Origin: Lentisphaeria bacterium
Lineage (GTDB): Bacteria; Verrucomicrobiota; Lentisphaeria; Victivallales; UBA1829
Direction of reading: 5' to 3'
Assembly: GCA_017503375.1 (NCBI GenBank)
Contig: JAFVTF010000011.1
Span: 1-64,000 of the forward strand
DNA: 64,000 nt
Positions 7,546 through 54,875 of this stretch are shown in pieces. A model generated the notes under the pieces. The model had not been told where the DNA came from. It saw nothing but the letters and a program-made list of their open reading frames with translations, and did not search any database. Numbering within the stretch: position 1 is the stretch's first letter; each line of letters opens with the position of its first letter. The position numbers and the translations under genes are program-made.

Positions 7546-8577
7546 ATGGAACAGTCAATTGTTTATTTTCCAGAAAAAGAGAAAGCTGTTTTTGAAATAA
7601 CTGAAGCTGAAGCCATTCTGCAGCCCCGTCAGGTTCTTATCAAAATTGATTATGATCTGATCAGTGCAGGAACCGAACTTGCAAATTATCATGACTTGCC
7701 CAATACTGAAGTATCTATCAGAAAATTTCCCCATTATCCGGGTTATACCACTTCCGGCCATATTGTAAAAACCGGAGATGCCGTCACAAAATATAAAGTC
7801 GGAGACCGTGTTGTCTGTGCCTGGGGCGGTCATCGTTCCTGGGTGATTCGGGATGAAAATGAGAGAATTTATCCGGTTCCGGAAAATATCAATCAGAAAG
7901 ATGCCGCCGTGGCGCATCTTGCATCATTTCCGATGTTGGCTGTCCGGAAACTTCAAATTCAGCTTGGCGAAGCATGTCTGATTGCCGGACAGGGATTGCT
8001 CGGTTTGATTGCCGGACAGCTTGCCCGGATCGCCGGGGCTTATCCGGTAATTGTCAGCGATTGTTCTCCGGAACGCCGGGAACTTGCTCTGAAACTCGGG
8101 GCCGATTATGCACTTGATCCCAAGGCTCCGGATTATGTCGAAAAAGTCCGGGAACTGACCGGCGGAAAAGGTCCGGAAACAGTTGTGGAAGTCACCGGAA
8201 ATATTCAGGCTCTTCAGCAGGTTCTGGAGTGTGTCGCCCAAAACGGAAGAGTTGCATTGCTGGGGTGTACAAGAATTTCTGATCAGCCTATCAATGTTTA
8301 CAGGTATATTCACTGCAAAGGTGTTTATCTGATTGGGGCTCACACATGCACACGTCCAGCACATGATGCAACTCATTGGGGGTGTTCAGAAGCAGACGAT
8401 TATAAAACATTTTTCAAATATCTGAACTCTGGAAGATTGCAGGTAGCACCTCTGATTTCAGAAGTTGCCTCTCCGCGCGATGCTGAAGCGATTTATCAGA
8501 AACTTGGTATGCAGGCAAATCCACCGCTGGGAATCCTGCTCGACTGGACTGATATAGATAAAATGAGGCAATTTTAA
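7546..8577 (+). CDS. MDR-family alcohol/polyol dehydrogenase
   Basis: 343 aa medium-chain dehydrogenase/reductase. N-terminal GroES-like domain (LIKIDYDLISAGTELANYHDL, HYPGYTTSGHIVKTGDAVTKYKVGDRV), then a Rossmann domain (CLIAGQGLLGLIAGQLARIAG, GPETVVEVTGN). The usual zinc-site cysteine is replaced (LISAGTE instead of a CGTD-like motif), as in the oxidoreductases often found in sugar gene clusters. AAAGGAG precedes the ATG. It is the first gene of the operon at 7546-13154. Its last residues (MRQF) and TAA stop are supplied by a 39-bp MITE-like insertion at 8565-8603. Substrate unknown. Confidence 0.85.
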   Translation: MEQSIVYFPEKEKAVFEITEAEAILQPRQVLIKIDYDLISAGTELANYHDLPNTEVSIRKFPHYPGYTTSGHIVKTGDAVTKYKVGDRVVCAWGGHRSWVIRDENERIYPVPENINQKDAAVAHLASFPMLAVRKLQIQLGEACLIAGQGLLGLIAGQLARIAGAYPVIVSDCSPERRELALKLGADYALDPKAPDYVEKVRELTGGKGPETVVEVTGNIQALQQVLECVAQNGRVALLGCTRISDQPINVYRYIHCKGVYLIGAHTCTRPAHDATHWGCSEADDYKTFFKYLNSGRLQVAPLISEVASPRDAEAIYQKLGMQANPPLGILLDWTDIDKMRQF

Positions 8578-8603
8578 AAGTCTGGGACTTTTGAAATTAC
8601 CTC
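8565..8603. mobile_element. 39-bp MITE-like element, both ends only, 5-bp duplication
   Basis: Left end GAGGCAATTTTAAAAGTC (8565-8582), 3-nt spacer, right end GACTTTTGAAATTACCTC (8586-8603). The outer flanks are AAAAT on both sides (8560-8564 and 8604-8608), a clean 5-bp target duplication. Its ends match those of the 165-bp element at 38226-38390. It provides the stop codon of the upstream dehydrogenase and lies just before the SDR ribosome site. Confidence 0.85.
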
Positions 8604-35989: not shown

Positions 35990-36051
35990 GAGGTGTTTTC
36001 AAAAGTCCAGCAAATTTTTCTGACATTTTTGGAAATTTTTGAAATTGCCTC
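35990..36051 (-). mobile_element. 62-bp internally deleted MITE-like copy, reversed
   Basis: Read on the minus strand, its first roughly 45 nt match the left end of the 165-bp element (GAGGCAATTTCAAAAATT...), and its other end (35990-36007, GAGGTGTTTTCAAAAGTC) matches the right end. The middle is gone. TATT flanks both sides (35986-35989, 36052-36055). Confidence 0.65.
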
Positions 36052-36165: not shown

Positions 36166-37557
36166 ATGAATAACAGTGTTAAGCAAAAAAACATTGCGTT
36201 GATATTATGGCTGTGTACAATATTATTATTTTTCAGCGGCCTTTTATTTGACTTTACAGGGGAAACGCTTGGATTGGTGTTTCCATATTATTTTTTAGTG
36301 CTGACATGTATCCTCAGTGGATTAGCATTGAGCTATTATTTGTATATTGCAGTTTCAGCTTACTGTTATCATCCGGCGCAACTTCTTTCATTGAACGATT
36401 TACCCGGCTGTACGGTCATTGTTCCTGCTTATAATGAAGGTCCACATGTTGCTGAAACATTGAATAGTATTCTGTCGGCAGATTATCCGCAGGAAAAGTT
36501 GGAAATTATTGCAATAGACGATGGTTCTGCTGATGATACATTATATTGGATAGAAGAAGTATCCAGCCGGAATCCCGGTAGAATAACAGTAATACACTTC
36601 CCCCGGAATCAGGGAAAAAAGCATGGATTATATACTGGATTTCTTAAAGCAAAATACGATATTGCAGTAACAGTGGACAGTGACACAATACTGGAATCCG
36701 GAGCATTACAACAAATTGTTTCCGGTTTTTCCGATCCAGAAGTTGGCAGTGTTGCCGGAAATATCCGGATAAGAAATTTGAATGAAGGAATATTACCCCG
36801 GATGATGGATGTAGGTTTTATGTTCGGTTTTGAAGTGATTCGCTGTGCTCAAAGTCTCATTGGTTGTGTGATGTGTACACCGGGAGCATTCAGTGCCTAC
36901 CGGAGAAGTTTGCTTTTCCCTTTTCTGGATAAATGGATGAAACAGAAATTTCTGGGCATCCCCGCAACAACAGGAGAAGACCGGGCACTTGCAACAATGA
37001 TGATCTGCAGCGGAAAAAAAGTTGTTTTTCAACGGGAAGCTGTTGCTCACACCTGTATTCCGTCAAATTATACCCGTTTTTGCAAGATGCTTCTCCGCTG
37101 GACTCGCAGCGATATCCGGGAAAATGCAATTATTTTTATTCACGCTTTCAAAAAATTGCAATGTAATCATATCAGGATTGGGCTTCAATATCATGCATTG
37201 GTTCAATGGATCAATACTTTGATTCCAGGAATTTTTCCATTGGCAATGATTGTTATTCTTTTTTTTATGCCCTTGACTTTTTTTGCCTTGCTGTATTGCG
37301 GTATCTTTTGTTCCTGTGTTGCCGCGCTGATCCCCGCGTTTATTTACGCAAAACGCGTCTCCGGGGTGTTTTCTGTTTGGGGTATATTTTTTGCAATTTA
37401 TAATACGCTGCTGTTATCATGGATTGTACCATATTCATTCATTACAGTTAAAAACAGCGGCTGGCTCACAAGAGATTTACAAAATAAAAATATCAATCGG
37501 GGTAAAATTCAAAAAATTGTGTTTGGGGTGCAAAAAAATACAGGACATAACAAATGA
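36166..37557 (+). CDS. Processive family 2 glycosyltransferase (polysaccharide synthase type)
   Basis: 463 aa. Two N-terminal membrane helices, a GT-A domain (TVIVPAYNEGPHVAETLNSIL, AIDDGSADDT, TVDSDTILE, acceptor-site TGEDRALATMM), then an LLRWTRSDIREN motif in place of QxxRW and about four C-terminal helices. This is the hyaluronan/chitin/poly-GlcNAc synthase layout, so it likely polymerises and extrudes a surface polysaccharide. GGGAG 7 nt before ATG. Base composition is more AT-rich than neighbours. Its end overlaps a response regulator by 4 nt, an unusual pairing. Confidence 0.85.
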   Translation: MNNSVKQKNIALILWLCTILLFFSGLLFDFTGETLGLVFPYYFLVLTCILSGLALSYYLYIAVSAYCYHPAQLLSLNDLPGCTVIVPAYNEGPHVAETLNSILSADYPQEKLEIIAIDDGSADDTLYWIEEVSSRNPGRITVIHFPRNQGKKHGLYTGFLKAKYDIAVTVDSDTILESGALQQIVSGFSDPEVGSVAGNIRIRNLNEGILPRMMDVGFMFGFEVIRCAQSLIGCVMCTPGAFSAYRRSLLFPFLDKWMKQKFLGIPATTGEDRALATMMICSGKKVVFQREAVAHTCIPSNYTRFCKMLLRWTRSDIRENAIIFIHAFKKLQCNHIRIGLQYHALVQWINTLIPGIFPLAMIVILFFMPLTFFALLYCGIFCSCVAALIPAFIYAKRVSGVFSVWGIFFAIYNTLLLSWIVPYSFITVKNSGWLTRDLQNKNINRGKIQKIVFGVQKNTGHNK

Positions 37558-38222
37558 AGATCCTTGTAATTGAAGATGATGATAAAACTGCCGGATTTGT
37601 GTTAAAAGCATTGAAGGAATCTGGATACTCTACCATTCACGCAAAAGATGGAAACGAAGGATACAGATTTGCAACATTACATTCTATAGATCTGGCAATT
37701 ATTGATCTGATGCTCCCCGGAATTAACGGTTTGACTGTTATCGAAAATATCAGAAAACATAATTTGAGCTTTCCCATTATCGTCTTGAGTGCGAAAGATT
37801 CTACACAGGATAAGGTCAACGCACTCATGTCTGGTTGTGATATCTATCTTTCAAAACCTTTTTCCATTTCGGAATTACTTGCTAATATTCACGCTCAAAT
37901 ACGTCGCACATACATGCTTACGGAACCATCATCTCTGACTGTGAAAGATCTTACTATAGATTTGCTCTCAAGAAAAGTACAGCGTAATGGGAATGAAATT
38001 ATCTTGCCGCCTAGAGAATATGCTCTATTGGAATATCTAATGAGAAATGCCGGAAGAGTTGTAACAAAGACAATGATTATTGAACATGTCTGGGAATATA
38101 ATTTTGATCCCCAAACATCTGTAGTTGAAACGCGGATTCATCAGTTGCGCAAGAAAATTGATGAATCATTTGAAGAGCCGTTGATCCATACTCTCCGGGG
38201 CGTTGGATATATTCTTGAATAA
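37554..38222 (+). CDS. OmpR/PhoB-family response regulator, orphan
   Basis: 222 aa. Receiver domain with acidic pocket EDDD (7-10), phospho-acceptor Asp51 in IIDLMLPG and a KPF lysine; a winged-helix DNA-binding domain at about 125-220 (ILPPREYALLEYLMRNAGRVVTKTMIIEHVW, VVETRIHQLRKKID, RGVGYILE). No histidine kinase is adjacent. Coupled by ATGA to the polysaccharide synthase, so it may respond to the same surface signal or regulate the synthase. The receiver has GCDIYLSKPF instead of the usual GADDYLxKPF. The stop codon abuts a MITE-like insertion. Confidence 0.9.
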   Translation: MKILVIEDDDKTAGFVLKALKESGYSTIHAKDGNEGYRFATLHSIDLAIIDLMLPGINGLTVIENIRKHNLSFPIIVLSAKDSTQDKVNALMSGCDIYLSKPFSISELLANIHAQIRRTYMLTEPSSLTVKDLTIDLLSRKVQRNGNEIILPPREYALLEYLMRNAGRVVTKTMIIEHVWEYNFDPQTSVVETRIHQLRKKIDESFEEPLIHTLRGVGYILE

Positions 38223-38225
38223 GCT

Positions 38226-38390
38226 GAGGCAATTTCAAAAGTCTTCAAAAATGTCTGAAAATTCTTGCTGTGATCAGAAAATGGAGCATTTTCGGTGGTT
38301 ACTCGTTGAGTAGCCACGCTCAAACTACCATTTCCATCTCATCAGCAATCTCTTTTCAGCCAAATTTTGCCGGACTTTTGAAATTACCTC
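38226..38390 (+). mobile_element. Full-length 165-bp MITE-like element with 5-bp duplication
   Basis: Terminal inverted repeats GAGGCAATTTCAAAAGTC (38226-38243) and GACTTTTGAAATTACCTC (38373-38390) match at 17 of 18 positions. AAGCT flanks both sides (38221-38225, 38391-38395). Interior hairpins: 38277-38293 (7-bp stem, loop GAG) and 38295-38317 (9-bp stem, loop CGTTG). No coding potential. It lies between convergent genes and may also end transcription. Confidence 0.88.
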
Positions 38391-38400
38391 AAGCTGATCA

Positions 38401-39159
38401 TCATTTCCCTGTTGCCAGGCACAGCAGTTTACCATTGGATTCGATGATCTGTGTTTCTATTCCGAAAACATCCCGGATGATTTCCGGTTTCATAACCTCC
38501 GCCGGAGTGCCGGAGCAATAGATCTTTTTTTCTTTCAGGAAAATCATACGGTCGGAATAAACCGAAGCAAGAGACAGGTCATGCAGGACCATCAGAACAG
38601 AAATTTGCTTTTCCCGGTTCAGTTTCCGGATCAATTCAAGGATTTCAAACTGACATTTGATATCAAGAAATGTCGTCGGTTCATCCAGAAGAAGGATTTC
38701 CGGATTCTGAGCAAAGGTCATGGCAAGACGCACTCTCTGCCGTTCACCTCCGGAAAGTGCGGCAACGATCCGTTTCTGTAAATGGGTGATTTCCATAGCT
38801 TCCAATGCGGAATTGATCATCTCTTTTGTTTTTGCACGTGATTCCCGGTAGGGAAAACGCCCCAGCGCAATCAATTCTTCCACCATCATCCCTTCCGGTA
38901 TTTCTGAGGATTGAGGGAGAATCGCCATTTTCCGTGCCAATTCTCCGGGTGCAAAGCGGCTGATATCCTGATCATTCAACAGTACAGTTCCGGAAAAAGG
39001 TTTCTGTAATCTTCCGGCAATTTTCAGAAGCGTTGATTTTCCGCATCCGTTTGAACCCAAAACCGTAACGATTTCTCCGGGATTGAGCCGCAGGGAAATA
39101 TCTTGCAGAATCTCTTTTTTTCCATAACCGCCGCAAATATTTTTCAGTTCAAACTTCAT
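38401..39159 (-). CDS. FecE/BtuD-like ABC transporter ATPase
   Basis: 252 aa. Walker A GSNGCGKST, Q-loop PQSSEIPEGM, signature LSGGERQRV, Walker B EILLLDEPTTFLD, H-loop HDLSLA. The closest recognisable group is the iron-siderophore/cobalamin importer ATPases. GGAGGT 6 nt before ATG 39159 decides the start. It overlaps the permease gene by 11 nt. No substrate-binding protein gene is next to them, so that part must lie elsewhere or has been lost. Confidence 0.9.
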   Translation of the reverse strand: MKFELKNICGGYGKKEILQDISLRLNPGEIVTVLGSNGCGKSTLLKIAGRLQKPFSGTVLLNDQDISRFAPGELARKMAILPQSSEIPEGMMVEELIALGRFPYRESRAKTKEMINSALEAMEITHLQKRIVAALSGGERQRVRLAMTFAQNPEILLLDEPTTFLDIKCQFEILELIRKLNREKQISVLMVLHDLSLASVYSDRMIFLKEKKIYCSGTPAEVMKPEIIRDVFGIETQIIESNGKLLCLATGK

Positions 39160-40174
39160 AACGGGACCTCCGCAGCAGCCACAGGAAGAATGGCGGACCG
39201 AGCAATGCAAGCAGTAATCCCACAGGGAATTCCCCGGGAGATGCGATCATGCGTCCGGCAAAATCACAGCCGACAACCAGAATCGCACCGAATGCCCCTG
39301 AAACCGGAAGCAGATAACGGTTATCCGGTCCGGAAATCATACGGATCATGTGGGGCGCAATCAATCCCACAAAACCGATCAAGCCCGCTGCACTGACAGC
39401 CGCAGCCGCCAGCAGAGCCGCTGTGATGATCAGAAGAAAACGTGTCCGTTCCACACACAGCCCCAACGAGGTGGCAGTATCATCGCCCAAGGCAAGAACA
39501 TTGATCTTTCCGGCACTGTAAAAAGCGGAAAGCAAACCGACGATCATATAAGGCAGAACTCTGAATACATCCTCTTCTCCGGCTGCGGCAAGTGAGCCGA
39601 AGGTAAAATCAAGGATCCGTCCGGTTTCCTCCGCAGAAAGCATCATCAGAATACCCGAAACCGCCCCCAGCATGGAGGAAACTGCCACACCGGCAAGCAC
39701 AAGTCTGACCGGATCAGTCCCCCGTTTCCATGCCAATCCGTAAATGATCAATGCCGCCGCCATTGCCCCGGCAAACGATGCCGGAAGCTGTAAGTTGAGA
39801 TATTGCGGAAAAAAAAGCAGAACGATCAATCCGCACAATCCGCCTCCGGAAGATACCCCGATGATTCCGGGCGATGCCAGCGGATTCCGCATGACACCCT
39901 GCAAAATCGCACCGGAAACAGCCAGACACGCTCCGGTCAATGCTCCCAGTATGATCCGCGGTAAACGGATTTGCATGAGGATTTTCCGGAGCATCCCATC
40001 GCCTTCTCCGGCTTTCGGAAACAGAAGTTGAGAAATCGGGGGAAGTTCCAGTTGGACAGTCCAGCTGAAAAACATAAGAACCAGAAGCAGAACCAGAAGA
40101 GCTGCGGCAAAAAGTATTTTCCCTCTTGTCTCCCGGAAAAATGATATTTTTATTTTTTCTGTATTCTGTTCCAT
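39149..40174 (-). CDS. FecCD-family ABC transporter permease
   Basis: 341 aa with about nine or ten membrane helices and the family motifs PRIILGALTGACLAVSGAILQGVMRNPLASPGIIGVSSGG and GLIGFVGLIAPHMIRM. Forms the membrane channel for an iron-siderophore, haem or cobalamin importer with the ATPase just downstream. ATG 40174 is chosen for GGGAGA close upstream; an earlier in-frame ATG adds 17 unlikely residues. Substrate cannot be told from sequence. Confidence 0.9.
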   Translation of the reverse strand: MEQNTEKIKISFFRETRGKILFAAALLVLLLVLMFFSWTVQLELPPISQLLFPKAGEGDGMLRKILMQIRLPRIILGALTGACLAVSGAILQGVMRNPLASPGIIGVSSGGGLCGLIVLLFFPQYLNLQLPASFAGAMAAALIIYGLAWKRGTDPVRLVLAGVAVSSMLGAVSGILMMLSAEETGRILDFTFGSLAAAGEEDVFRVLPYMIVGLLSAFYSAGKINVLALGDDTATSLGLCVERTRFLLIITAALLAAAAVSAAGLIGFVGLIAPHMIRMISGPDNRYLLPVSGAFGAILVVGCDFAGRMIASPGEFPVGLLLALLGPPFFLWLLRRSRYEV

Positions 40175-47637: not shown

Positions 47638-47664
47638 GTTTTTCAGAACTGAGTAACAAAACAG

Positions 47665-47704
47665 GGGCTGCCGCAATGATGAATCTTGCGGCAGCCCGTT
47701 TTTT
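47665..47704 (+). terminator. Rho-independent terminator after the GH36 gene
   Basis: 12-bp perfect stem GGGCTGCCGCAA / TTGCGGCAGCCC, 9-nt loop, then G and six T. Confidence 0.92.
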
Positions 47705-49762: not shown

Positions 49763-49937
49763 GTCTTCTTTCAGAAAAATATGCCTCAGATTAAGAAAAA
49801 AAGAGAACTTTTTCCGATTTGTTCTTTTCCCCGTAAGGGTTGGTAAATCTTTCTGCTATTTTTAATATGGCATTTTGATTTTTGTGACACAAAAATCGGA
49901 ATGCCGCAAAAAGGTTTGAAAAAGGATGATGGGGTTC

Positions 49938-49984
49938 GGGGAAGAAGGGAAAAACTTTCCTGAAAAGTTTTTCTCTTCTTCCCC
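49938..49984. repeat. Long palindrome, 21-bp arms
   Basis: Arms 49938-49958 (GGGGAAGAAGGGAAAAACTTT) and 49964-49984 match at 20 of 21 positions, with 5-nt loop CCTGA. It sits in a 324-nt gap downstream of the broken SDR gene. It lacks a T-run on the transcribed side, so it is not a standard terminator. Confidence 0.85.
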
Positions 49985-50018
49985 GATCTCAAATCAACCT
50001 TTATTTTGAATTGAGCTT

Positions 50019-53578: not shown

Positions 53579-54775
53579 ATGAAAGAGAAAATACTGAAAC
53601 TGAATAACATAAAAAATCAAAATTATCAGACTGTTCTGGATGTCCTTCTGCAGTCTGAGGGACTTTCACGGATTGAACTTGCACAGAAGATGGGGTGCGA
53701 CAACACAACCGTTTCCCGGGCTGTGCGGGCTTTGATTGAACGTGGGATCATCGTTCATGGAAAGAAGACTGGGCAGGAACATGGGCGTCCTAGGATCACG
53801 TTGGAGTTGAACCCGGAAGGCCCTGTTCTGATCGGAGTTTCTCTGGAGGCGGAACGGATCACCGGAGTGATTACTGATTTGCGCGGAATCGTCCGGGAAA
53901 AATCTCAGGTGATTTTCTCTGAACCGCCGTCAAAGGAATTTTTCTTCCGGGAACTGAGCAGGGTTTTACAGAATCTGAAACAGATTGCCGGAGCGCGTCT
54001 CAGCGGAATCGGTGCGGCTGTTTTCGGAAACTATTCGGGACCTGATTTTACCATTGAAAATGCGGCGGCACTTCCTGCTTTGAATGGGGTGAATCTGCAA
54101 TCAGAATTAAATAAAGCTGCAGATTATCCTGTAACGATTTGTGACCATCTGGTTTCCAGAATGTCTTTTCTCGGGCGGGAACTGCCGGAGTTTAATTCCG
54201 GAACCGTTATGCTGATTTCAGCCGGCAGCGGGATCGGTTCTCTGATTGCGGAAAACGGACGTTTTCTTTTTACCCGGAATAACCACAGCGGGGAGCTGGG
54301 GCACAGTATTTGTATTCCGGATGGTTTGCCTTGCAGCTGCGGAAGACGGGGCTGTCTTGAAACGGTTGCATCCATACGGGCTTTGTTGAATCACTGCAGA
54401 AAAAAACTGCATCATCCGGAGCTTTCTTTTGACCAGCTTTGCAAGAAATATCAATCAGGAGATCAGAGTGTTTCAGAAGAAGTGGAACGGTGTGCGGGAT
54501 ATCTCAGTACAGCAATTTCCAATCAGCTGAACAGTTATCCGGTGGATAAACTTGTGATTACCGGGCGTATGCTGGAACTTGGTCCCGGTTTCCAGAACTC
54601 TCTGGAATCAAAAATAACCTCTTCCCTTTTTACCCTGTTCCGTCAGGGGCTGACAAAACATTTTGTCCGGCTCGATTACGACAATTCCCTTGCCAGAGGA
54701 GCCGCAATCTTTGCCGGCCGGTTTATCAATTTCTGTTCAGTGGAGGCAATTTCAAAAGTCTTCAAAAATATCTGA
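53579..54775 (+). CDS. ROK-family transcriptional regulator
   Basis: 398 aa. N-terminal winged HTH (LSRIELAQKMGCDNTTVSRAVRALIERGIIVHG), then a ROK sugar-kinase-like domain (LIGVSLEAERITGVITDLRG, LISAGSGIGSLIAENG) with the zinc motif CSCGRRGCLET. Presumably a sugar-responsive repressor of the neighbouring glycosidase and the divergent gene. The last 11 residues (VEAISKVFKNI) and stop are encoded by a MITE-like repeat. The only Shine-Dalgarno-like AGGAG is 14 nt from the ATG and overlaps the promoter spacer. Confidence 0.9.
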   Translation: MKEKILKLNNIKNQNYQTVLDVLLQSEGLSRIELAQKMGCDNTTVSRAVRALIERGIIVHGKKTGQEHGRPRITLELNPEGPVLIGVSLEAERITGVITDLRGIVREKSQVIFSEPPSKEFFFRELSRVLQNLKQIAGARLSGIGAAVFGNYSGPDFTIENAAALPALNGVNLQSELNKAADYPVTICDHLVSRMSFLGRELPEFNSGTVMLISAGSGIGSLIAENGRFLFTRNNHSGELGHSICIPDGLPCSCGRRGCLETVASIRALLNHCRKKLHHPELSFDQLCKKYQSGDQSVSEEVERCAGYLSTAISNQLNSYPVDKLVITGRMLELGPGFQNSLESKITSSLFTLFRQGLTKHFVRLDYDNSLARGAAIFAGRFINFCSVEAISKVFKNI

Positions 54776-54875
54776 AAACTCTTGCCGTAATCTGAAAATG
54801 GAGCGTTTTCGGTGGTTACTTGTTAAGTAGCCACGCTCAAACTACCATTTTCATCTCATCAGCAATCTCTTTTCA
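54743..54875 (+). mobile_element. 133-bp 3'-truncated MITE-like copy
   Basis: About 93% identical (9 differences) to 38226-38358, with the same length and both interior hairpins kept (9-bp GTGGTTACT stem; a GAAAATG stem with one wobble). The right terminal repeat is absent. It lies between two convergent genes and encodes the C-terminal residues of both. Confidence 0.88.

Follow-up and report, generated by a model that had tools for sequence, protein, structure and literature searches.

The 165-bp element analysed here lies in a 64,000-nucleotide stretch of Lentisphaeria DNA, from now on referred to as the window. It is best read as a member of a high-copy MITE family moved in trans by IS1182-family-like transposases, a reading based on sequence comparison to which we assign a probability of about 0.87. 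The element is short and without a transposase gene, its defined terminal inverted repeats are common to many copies, target duplications of characteristic length occur far above the level of shuffled pairings, and the element is absent from an orthologous gene junction in a relative. Autonomous elements with the same ends are found in relatives, while the genome of the window holds only remnants.

Structure and setting of the element

The element sits exactly between two convergent genes, neither of which is damaged (Table 1). Upstream lies a 222-aa ORF on the + strand (37554-38222) whose stop codon borders the element, and downstream a convergent 269-aa ORF (38401-39210) whose stop codon faces it. 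The two terminal repeats are complementary at 17 of 18 positions with a single differing position, and AAGCT is repeated exactly on either side, confirming the 18-bp ends and the exact duplication reported in the earlier note. With imperfect pairing (82%) the inverted repeat reaches 28 bp, and the element is the longest inverted pair in the window among those of at most 400 bp. No ORF of at least 90 aa overlaps it beyond the stop codons of the flanking genes, in agreement with the proposed lack of coding capacity. The two interior hairpins described earlier do not stand as separate features, both being parts of one long end-to-end hairpin into which the whole element folds. Other strong inverted repeats in the window, at 49936-49986 (23 bp, 96%) and 47658-47704 (19 bp, 89%), are possibly terminators.

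Table 1. Positions of the element, its parts and related copies in the window.
Feature	Position	Strand	Remarks
Full-length MITE, commonest size class, 165 bp	38226..38390	+	26 (near-)full copies in the same genome, 90-100% identity
Left terminal inverted repeat GAGGCAATTTCAAAAGTC, 18 bp	38226..38243	+	
Right terminal inverted repeat GAGGTAATTTCAAAAGTC (read inwards), 18 bp	38373..38390	-	
Target duplication AAGCT, left copy	38221..38225	.	overlaps stop codon TAA of upstream gene
Target duplication AAGCT, right copy	38391..38395	.	
39-bp copy consisting of two nearly abutting terminal repeats	8565..8603	+	5-bp duplication AAAAT on both sides
62-bp copy, internal deletion, degenerate left end	35990..36051	+	4-bp duplication TATT
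133-bp copy, 3'-truncated, right terminal repeat missing	54743..54875	+	

Copies, target duplications and an orthologous junction

The genome of the window comprises 3.6 Mb in 128 contigs. Besides the 26 full or nearly full copies, this one included, 14 further copies are cut by contig ends because the repeat breaks the assembly, giving 40 scored copies together. A genome-wide search with the 18-bp ends, as the earlier note had proposed, returned 197 matches with at most two mismatches compared with 3 for a reversed control pattern. Based on these counts, obtained from searches plus fetched stretches of the genome, the family has about 100 copies in this genome. The copies are mostly intergenic, often abut gene ends and are found in tandem, convergent and divergent contexts. 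Regarding the three related copies previously listed for the window, those of 39 and 62 bp are real, but the 133-bp one is a truncated fragment.

Complete copies fall into size classes of about 35-42, 123/124, 165, 184, 195/196 and 220 bp. Classes of at least 123 bp have the outer ~60 bp per side in common and differ in their cores. The 35-42 bp copies consist of hardly more than both ends back to back, some of them retaining duplications, and would fit internal deletion of the hairpin following insertion. At 32 bp, an end-to-end palindrome (GAGGTAATTTCAAAATATTTTGAAATTGCCTC, L309:1501-1532) with CCTT on either side is the smallest of the observed copies that have a 4-bp duplication. The 184 and 196 classes contain a palindrome of the type TCCTCCGTAGCTTCAGCGAAGGAGGA, found in both orientations. 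Because palindromes of this type also occur where such ends are few or lacking, as in the genomes G057, G010 and G040 of the order, the MITE cores look captured. REP-like palindromes TCCTCCGTAGC..GCGAAGGAGGA with paired changes of the inner bases are scattered through G057, G010, G040, G056 and other genomes of the order, whether or not the genome contains the MITE.

Target duplications were counted in 114 distinct complete copies from the genome of the window and related genomes. Among these, 57 had a longest exact flanking repeat of 4 bp and 15 one of 5 bp, with shuffled pairings giving about 3 and 0.6, respectively; about a third of the copies had no recognisable duplication. Duplications made by the family in A+T-rich DNA are therefore 4 bp or, less frequently, 5 bp long, and the copy flanked by AAGCT belongs to the 5-bp minority. 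The earlier proposal of a non-autonomous transposon family is upheld by copy number, duplication statistics, an IS with the same ends and absence of the element from the orthologous gene junction in G001, but the 5-bp duplications assigned to it proved to be mainly 4 bp.

In G001, a genome of the same genus, the two genes again converge and are direct neighbours (contig C92), with no MITE in between. Gene identity to the window at this locus is 71-74%, and this sequence divergence makes a base-exact junction unobtainable. No base-exact empty site was found among relatives, which are only ~75% identical, and a search for MITE-in-MITE insertions that could serve as one gave only adjacent or truncated copies. 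The suggested look for empty sites has therefore yielded a gene junction free of the element, but not a site exact to the base.

Probable partner ISs in relatives and relics in the genus

Partner ISs were reached through relatives that have only one or a few MITE-type ends. One of these (G019) contains an element of 1396 bp (L100:1501-2896) with 20-bp ends at 80% (GAGGTAATTTCAAAAGTATT and GAGCCAATTTCAAAAAGATT), ATCC on both sides and a single gene of about 354-373 codons. The partner-IS transposase combines DUF772 (PF05598) and DDE_Tnp_1 (PF01609), both scoring over their cut-offs. Other intact or near-intact ISs with the same ends are flanked by duplications of 4 bp (ATGT, ACTA, AGAC) or 5 bp (TATAT), two copies having none, and this mix of lengths is the same as in the MITE. 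The partner ISs are ~1.4 kb long and have ends GAGGYAATTTCAAAAGT as in the MITE. Only about 17 bp at the ends are common to MITE and IS. Instead of matching one left and one right IS end, the two ends of the MITE each look like the left one. The left region of the G019 element also contains an inverted repeat, GGGCAGAAGATTCCTATTA / TAAAATGAACGATCTGCCC, lying across the transposase start codon (L100:1544-1606), which could hide the transposase start in read-through transcripts.

The nearest annotated records, from a plasmid collection, are IS1182-family transposases of the ISUnCu17 group (40-42% over 97-99% of their length), ISUnCu17 itself being 40% identical to the Lentisphaeria IS transposase. 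The transposase is accordingly related to those of the IS1182 family. The elements of these annotated records have ends of the type GAG..CTTGCAAAA, which read GAGCCTCTTGCAAAA / GAGCTTCTTGCAAAA with ATGA duplicated, and GAGGCTCTTGC.. with TGGT duplicated. Both the Lentisphaeria ISs and annotated members have GAGSY..TTKCAAAA-type ends together with 4-bp duplications. The NCBIfam IS1182 model (NF033551, cut-off 270) gives 86-109 bits for the Lentisphaeria proteins, 80 for annotated ISUnCu17 and 82 for a Comamonas relative, and does not discriminate here, as annotated IS1182-family relatives are also below its cut-off.

Single-sequence and profile searches found no intact cognate transposase in the genome of the window or in other MITE-rich genomes. 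The genome of the window (G000) contains a truncated left end of the IS that includes the first transposase codons, 77% identical over 202 bp (C16; L262/L284). A similar left end is joined to a MITE in G001, and G002 has a decayed IS right part. Two loci, L289 (G002) and L291 (G000 by list order), retain no more than 25-28 bp of the left IS end, with the MITE directly after. Since relics are present in all three genomes, the genus must formerly have had the IS. The intact IS would either have been lost, or its intact copies dropped from these short-read MAGs. As the assembly of the window contains a truncated left end but no intact transposase, the MITE family is an orphan in it unless the IS was lost in assembly. 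The transposase that the earlier note presumed elsewhere in the genome, and the IS it suggested looking for, are thus represented by intact elements with the same ends in relatives, but by nothing more than a truncated left end in the genome itself.

Stretches around lone ends in the genome of the window were read and no autonomous element was found there. The DDE_Tnp_1 transposases of this genome (C20, C90, C76) were considered as mobilisers and rejected, none being flanked by such ends. At L283:1481-1900 and L205 (G001), an IS left end with the transposase start is fused to a MITE, and the flanks share about 20 bp (TGTCAGAT.TTCTTTTTAATG), which suggests a complex insertion or rearrangement.

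Proposed mechanism, hairpin and known systems

We hypothesize that a DDE transposase would bind the outer ~15-18 bp of both MITE ends, excise or copy the MITE and insert it at a staggered break in DNA that is A+T-rich and mostly intergenic, after which gap filling would leave the 4-5 bp duplication. We infer that the copies were mobilised by an IS1182-like transposase and not by some unseen relative of it, and that the family in this genome either no longer moves or depends on an IS lost or missed in assembly. It is unlikely, in our estimate, that the mobiliser was instead a different, unseen transposase with exact GAGGYAATTTCAAAAGTC ends, the IS1182-like ends being similar by common descent only. 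Such a transposase would be consistent with the lack of an intact partner in MITE-rich genomes and with the fact that nearly all IS ends cease to match those of the MITE by position 18. However, divergence after position 16-17 is also found between IS copies, and the IS1182-like elements match the MITE closely in both ends and duplication lengths. The same genus furthermore holds remnants of an IS1182-like IS with ends GAGGYAATTTCAAAAGTTTTT, while the DDE_Tnp_1 matches of the genome itself have no such ends.

The hairpin raises the question of whether the copies, rather than being a transposon, are a functionally maintained structured RNA or regulatory repeat, such as a terminator or mRNA processing hairpin. 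An end-to-end single hairpin also forms, on either strand, in copies of distant lineages with identities as low as about 61-65%. In an alignment of 15 sequences, both partners have changed with pairing preserved in 14 of 46 pairs, with covariation of 0.157 compared with 0.084 in shuffles and 0.04-0.06 when slid, statistics that are weakened by shared ancestry. These compensatory changes, together with the mostly intergenic location often at gene ends, would suit a functional repeat. As an origin of the copies this explanation is nevertheless already largely refuted, and we regard it as very improbable: the ends are exact and bordered by 4-5 bp target duplications, the element is absent at the orthologous junction, and all of the tandem, convergent and divergent contexts are occupied. 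Scans of the element for promoters and terminators detected no terminator-like signal and nothing useful, and an Rfam scan gave no match above the gathering score. In TTC-first orientation, mismatches are biased towards A-C (347, against 187 G-T), though in copies that share ancestry; A-C as well as G-U type mismatches occur, and no RNA strand is clearly singled out.

For the MITE, the kept pairing can reflect selection on the folded form or a correction that acts between the two arms in the DNA. The element's inverted-repeat origin, together with such correction, probably gave rise to the long hairpin; that it might also end transcription or serve as an RNA processing site is speculation. A further, rather doubtful possibility is that the family is a modular vehicle with a constant shell (about 60 bp per side), whose central hairpin was repeatedly swapped for TCCTCCGTAGCTTCAGCGAAGGAGGA-type REP-like palindromes that also stand alone in the order, the full-length hairpin being maintained by compensatory change across families. 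If true, hairpin shape and not sequence would be selected for mobility or host tolerance.

Exact or one-mismatch ends are present in 37 of the 80 genomes searched within the order, with >150 each in G000, G001, G002 and G008. Among the matches listed, which may not include the genome of the window, all named records with the MITE shell are Lentisphaeria MAGs; where a title gives a source, it is roe deer caecum or sheep colon. The family is hosted by uncultured Lentisphaeria, for the most part from the guts of ruminants. In MAGs of ruminant-gut Lentisphaeria it accounts for a substantial share of the repeats and for many contig breaks. The findings connect a specific IS family with a MITE family not described before and provide a natural series, from intact IS through relic IS to orphan MITE with swapped cores, bearing on how MITEs persist once their transposase is gone and why they retain long hairpins.

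Tn3-derived miniature elements (TIMEs) are short, non-autonomous and generate 5-bp duplications, a length to which the AAGCT-flanked copy had initially pointed. TIMEs appear in PMC13367494. Assignment to them was rejected, as the Lentisphaeria MITE has mainly 4-bp duplications (57/114) and its matching transposase is IS1182-like (DUF772/DDE_Tnp_1), not Tn3-like. IS1182-family ISs (ISUnCu17 and relatives) resemble the Lentisphaeria ISs in their ends, GAG(G/C)(C/T)..(C)TTGCAAAA, in 4-bp duplications and in a DUF772 plus DDE transposase, whereas the MITE has no transposase and only the end sequence in common with them. The literature searched held no description of the 165-bp family in Lentisphaeria, and in this respect the earlier note's view of it as undescribed stands, but MITEs linked to IS1182 were already known. 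Searching for MITEs in Lentisphaeria led to one paper, which deals with repeats of Porphyromonas gingivalis and mentions Lentisphaerae a single time. The nearest described case is MITEPye1 of the alphaproteobacterium Paracoccus yeei, a 159-bp intergenic element without an ORF that has 18-bp terminal repeats resembling the ends of IS1182-family elements, direct repeats of 4 bp and a long stem-loop, occurs in 1-3 copies per chromosome and is thought to be mobilised by IS1182-family transposases (PMC11578231). Compared by description, the two are alike in being short, with 18-bp IS1182-like ends, 4-bp repeats and a long hairpin. In contrast to the 1-3 copies of MITEPye1, the Lentisphaeria family has ~100 copies and several interchangeable cores and belongs to a different phylum; what is new is a high-copy, modular MITE family.
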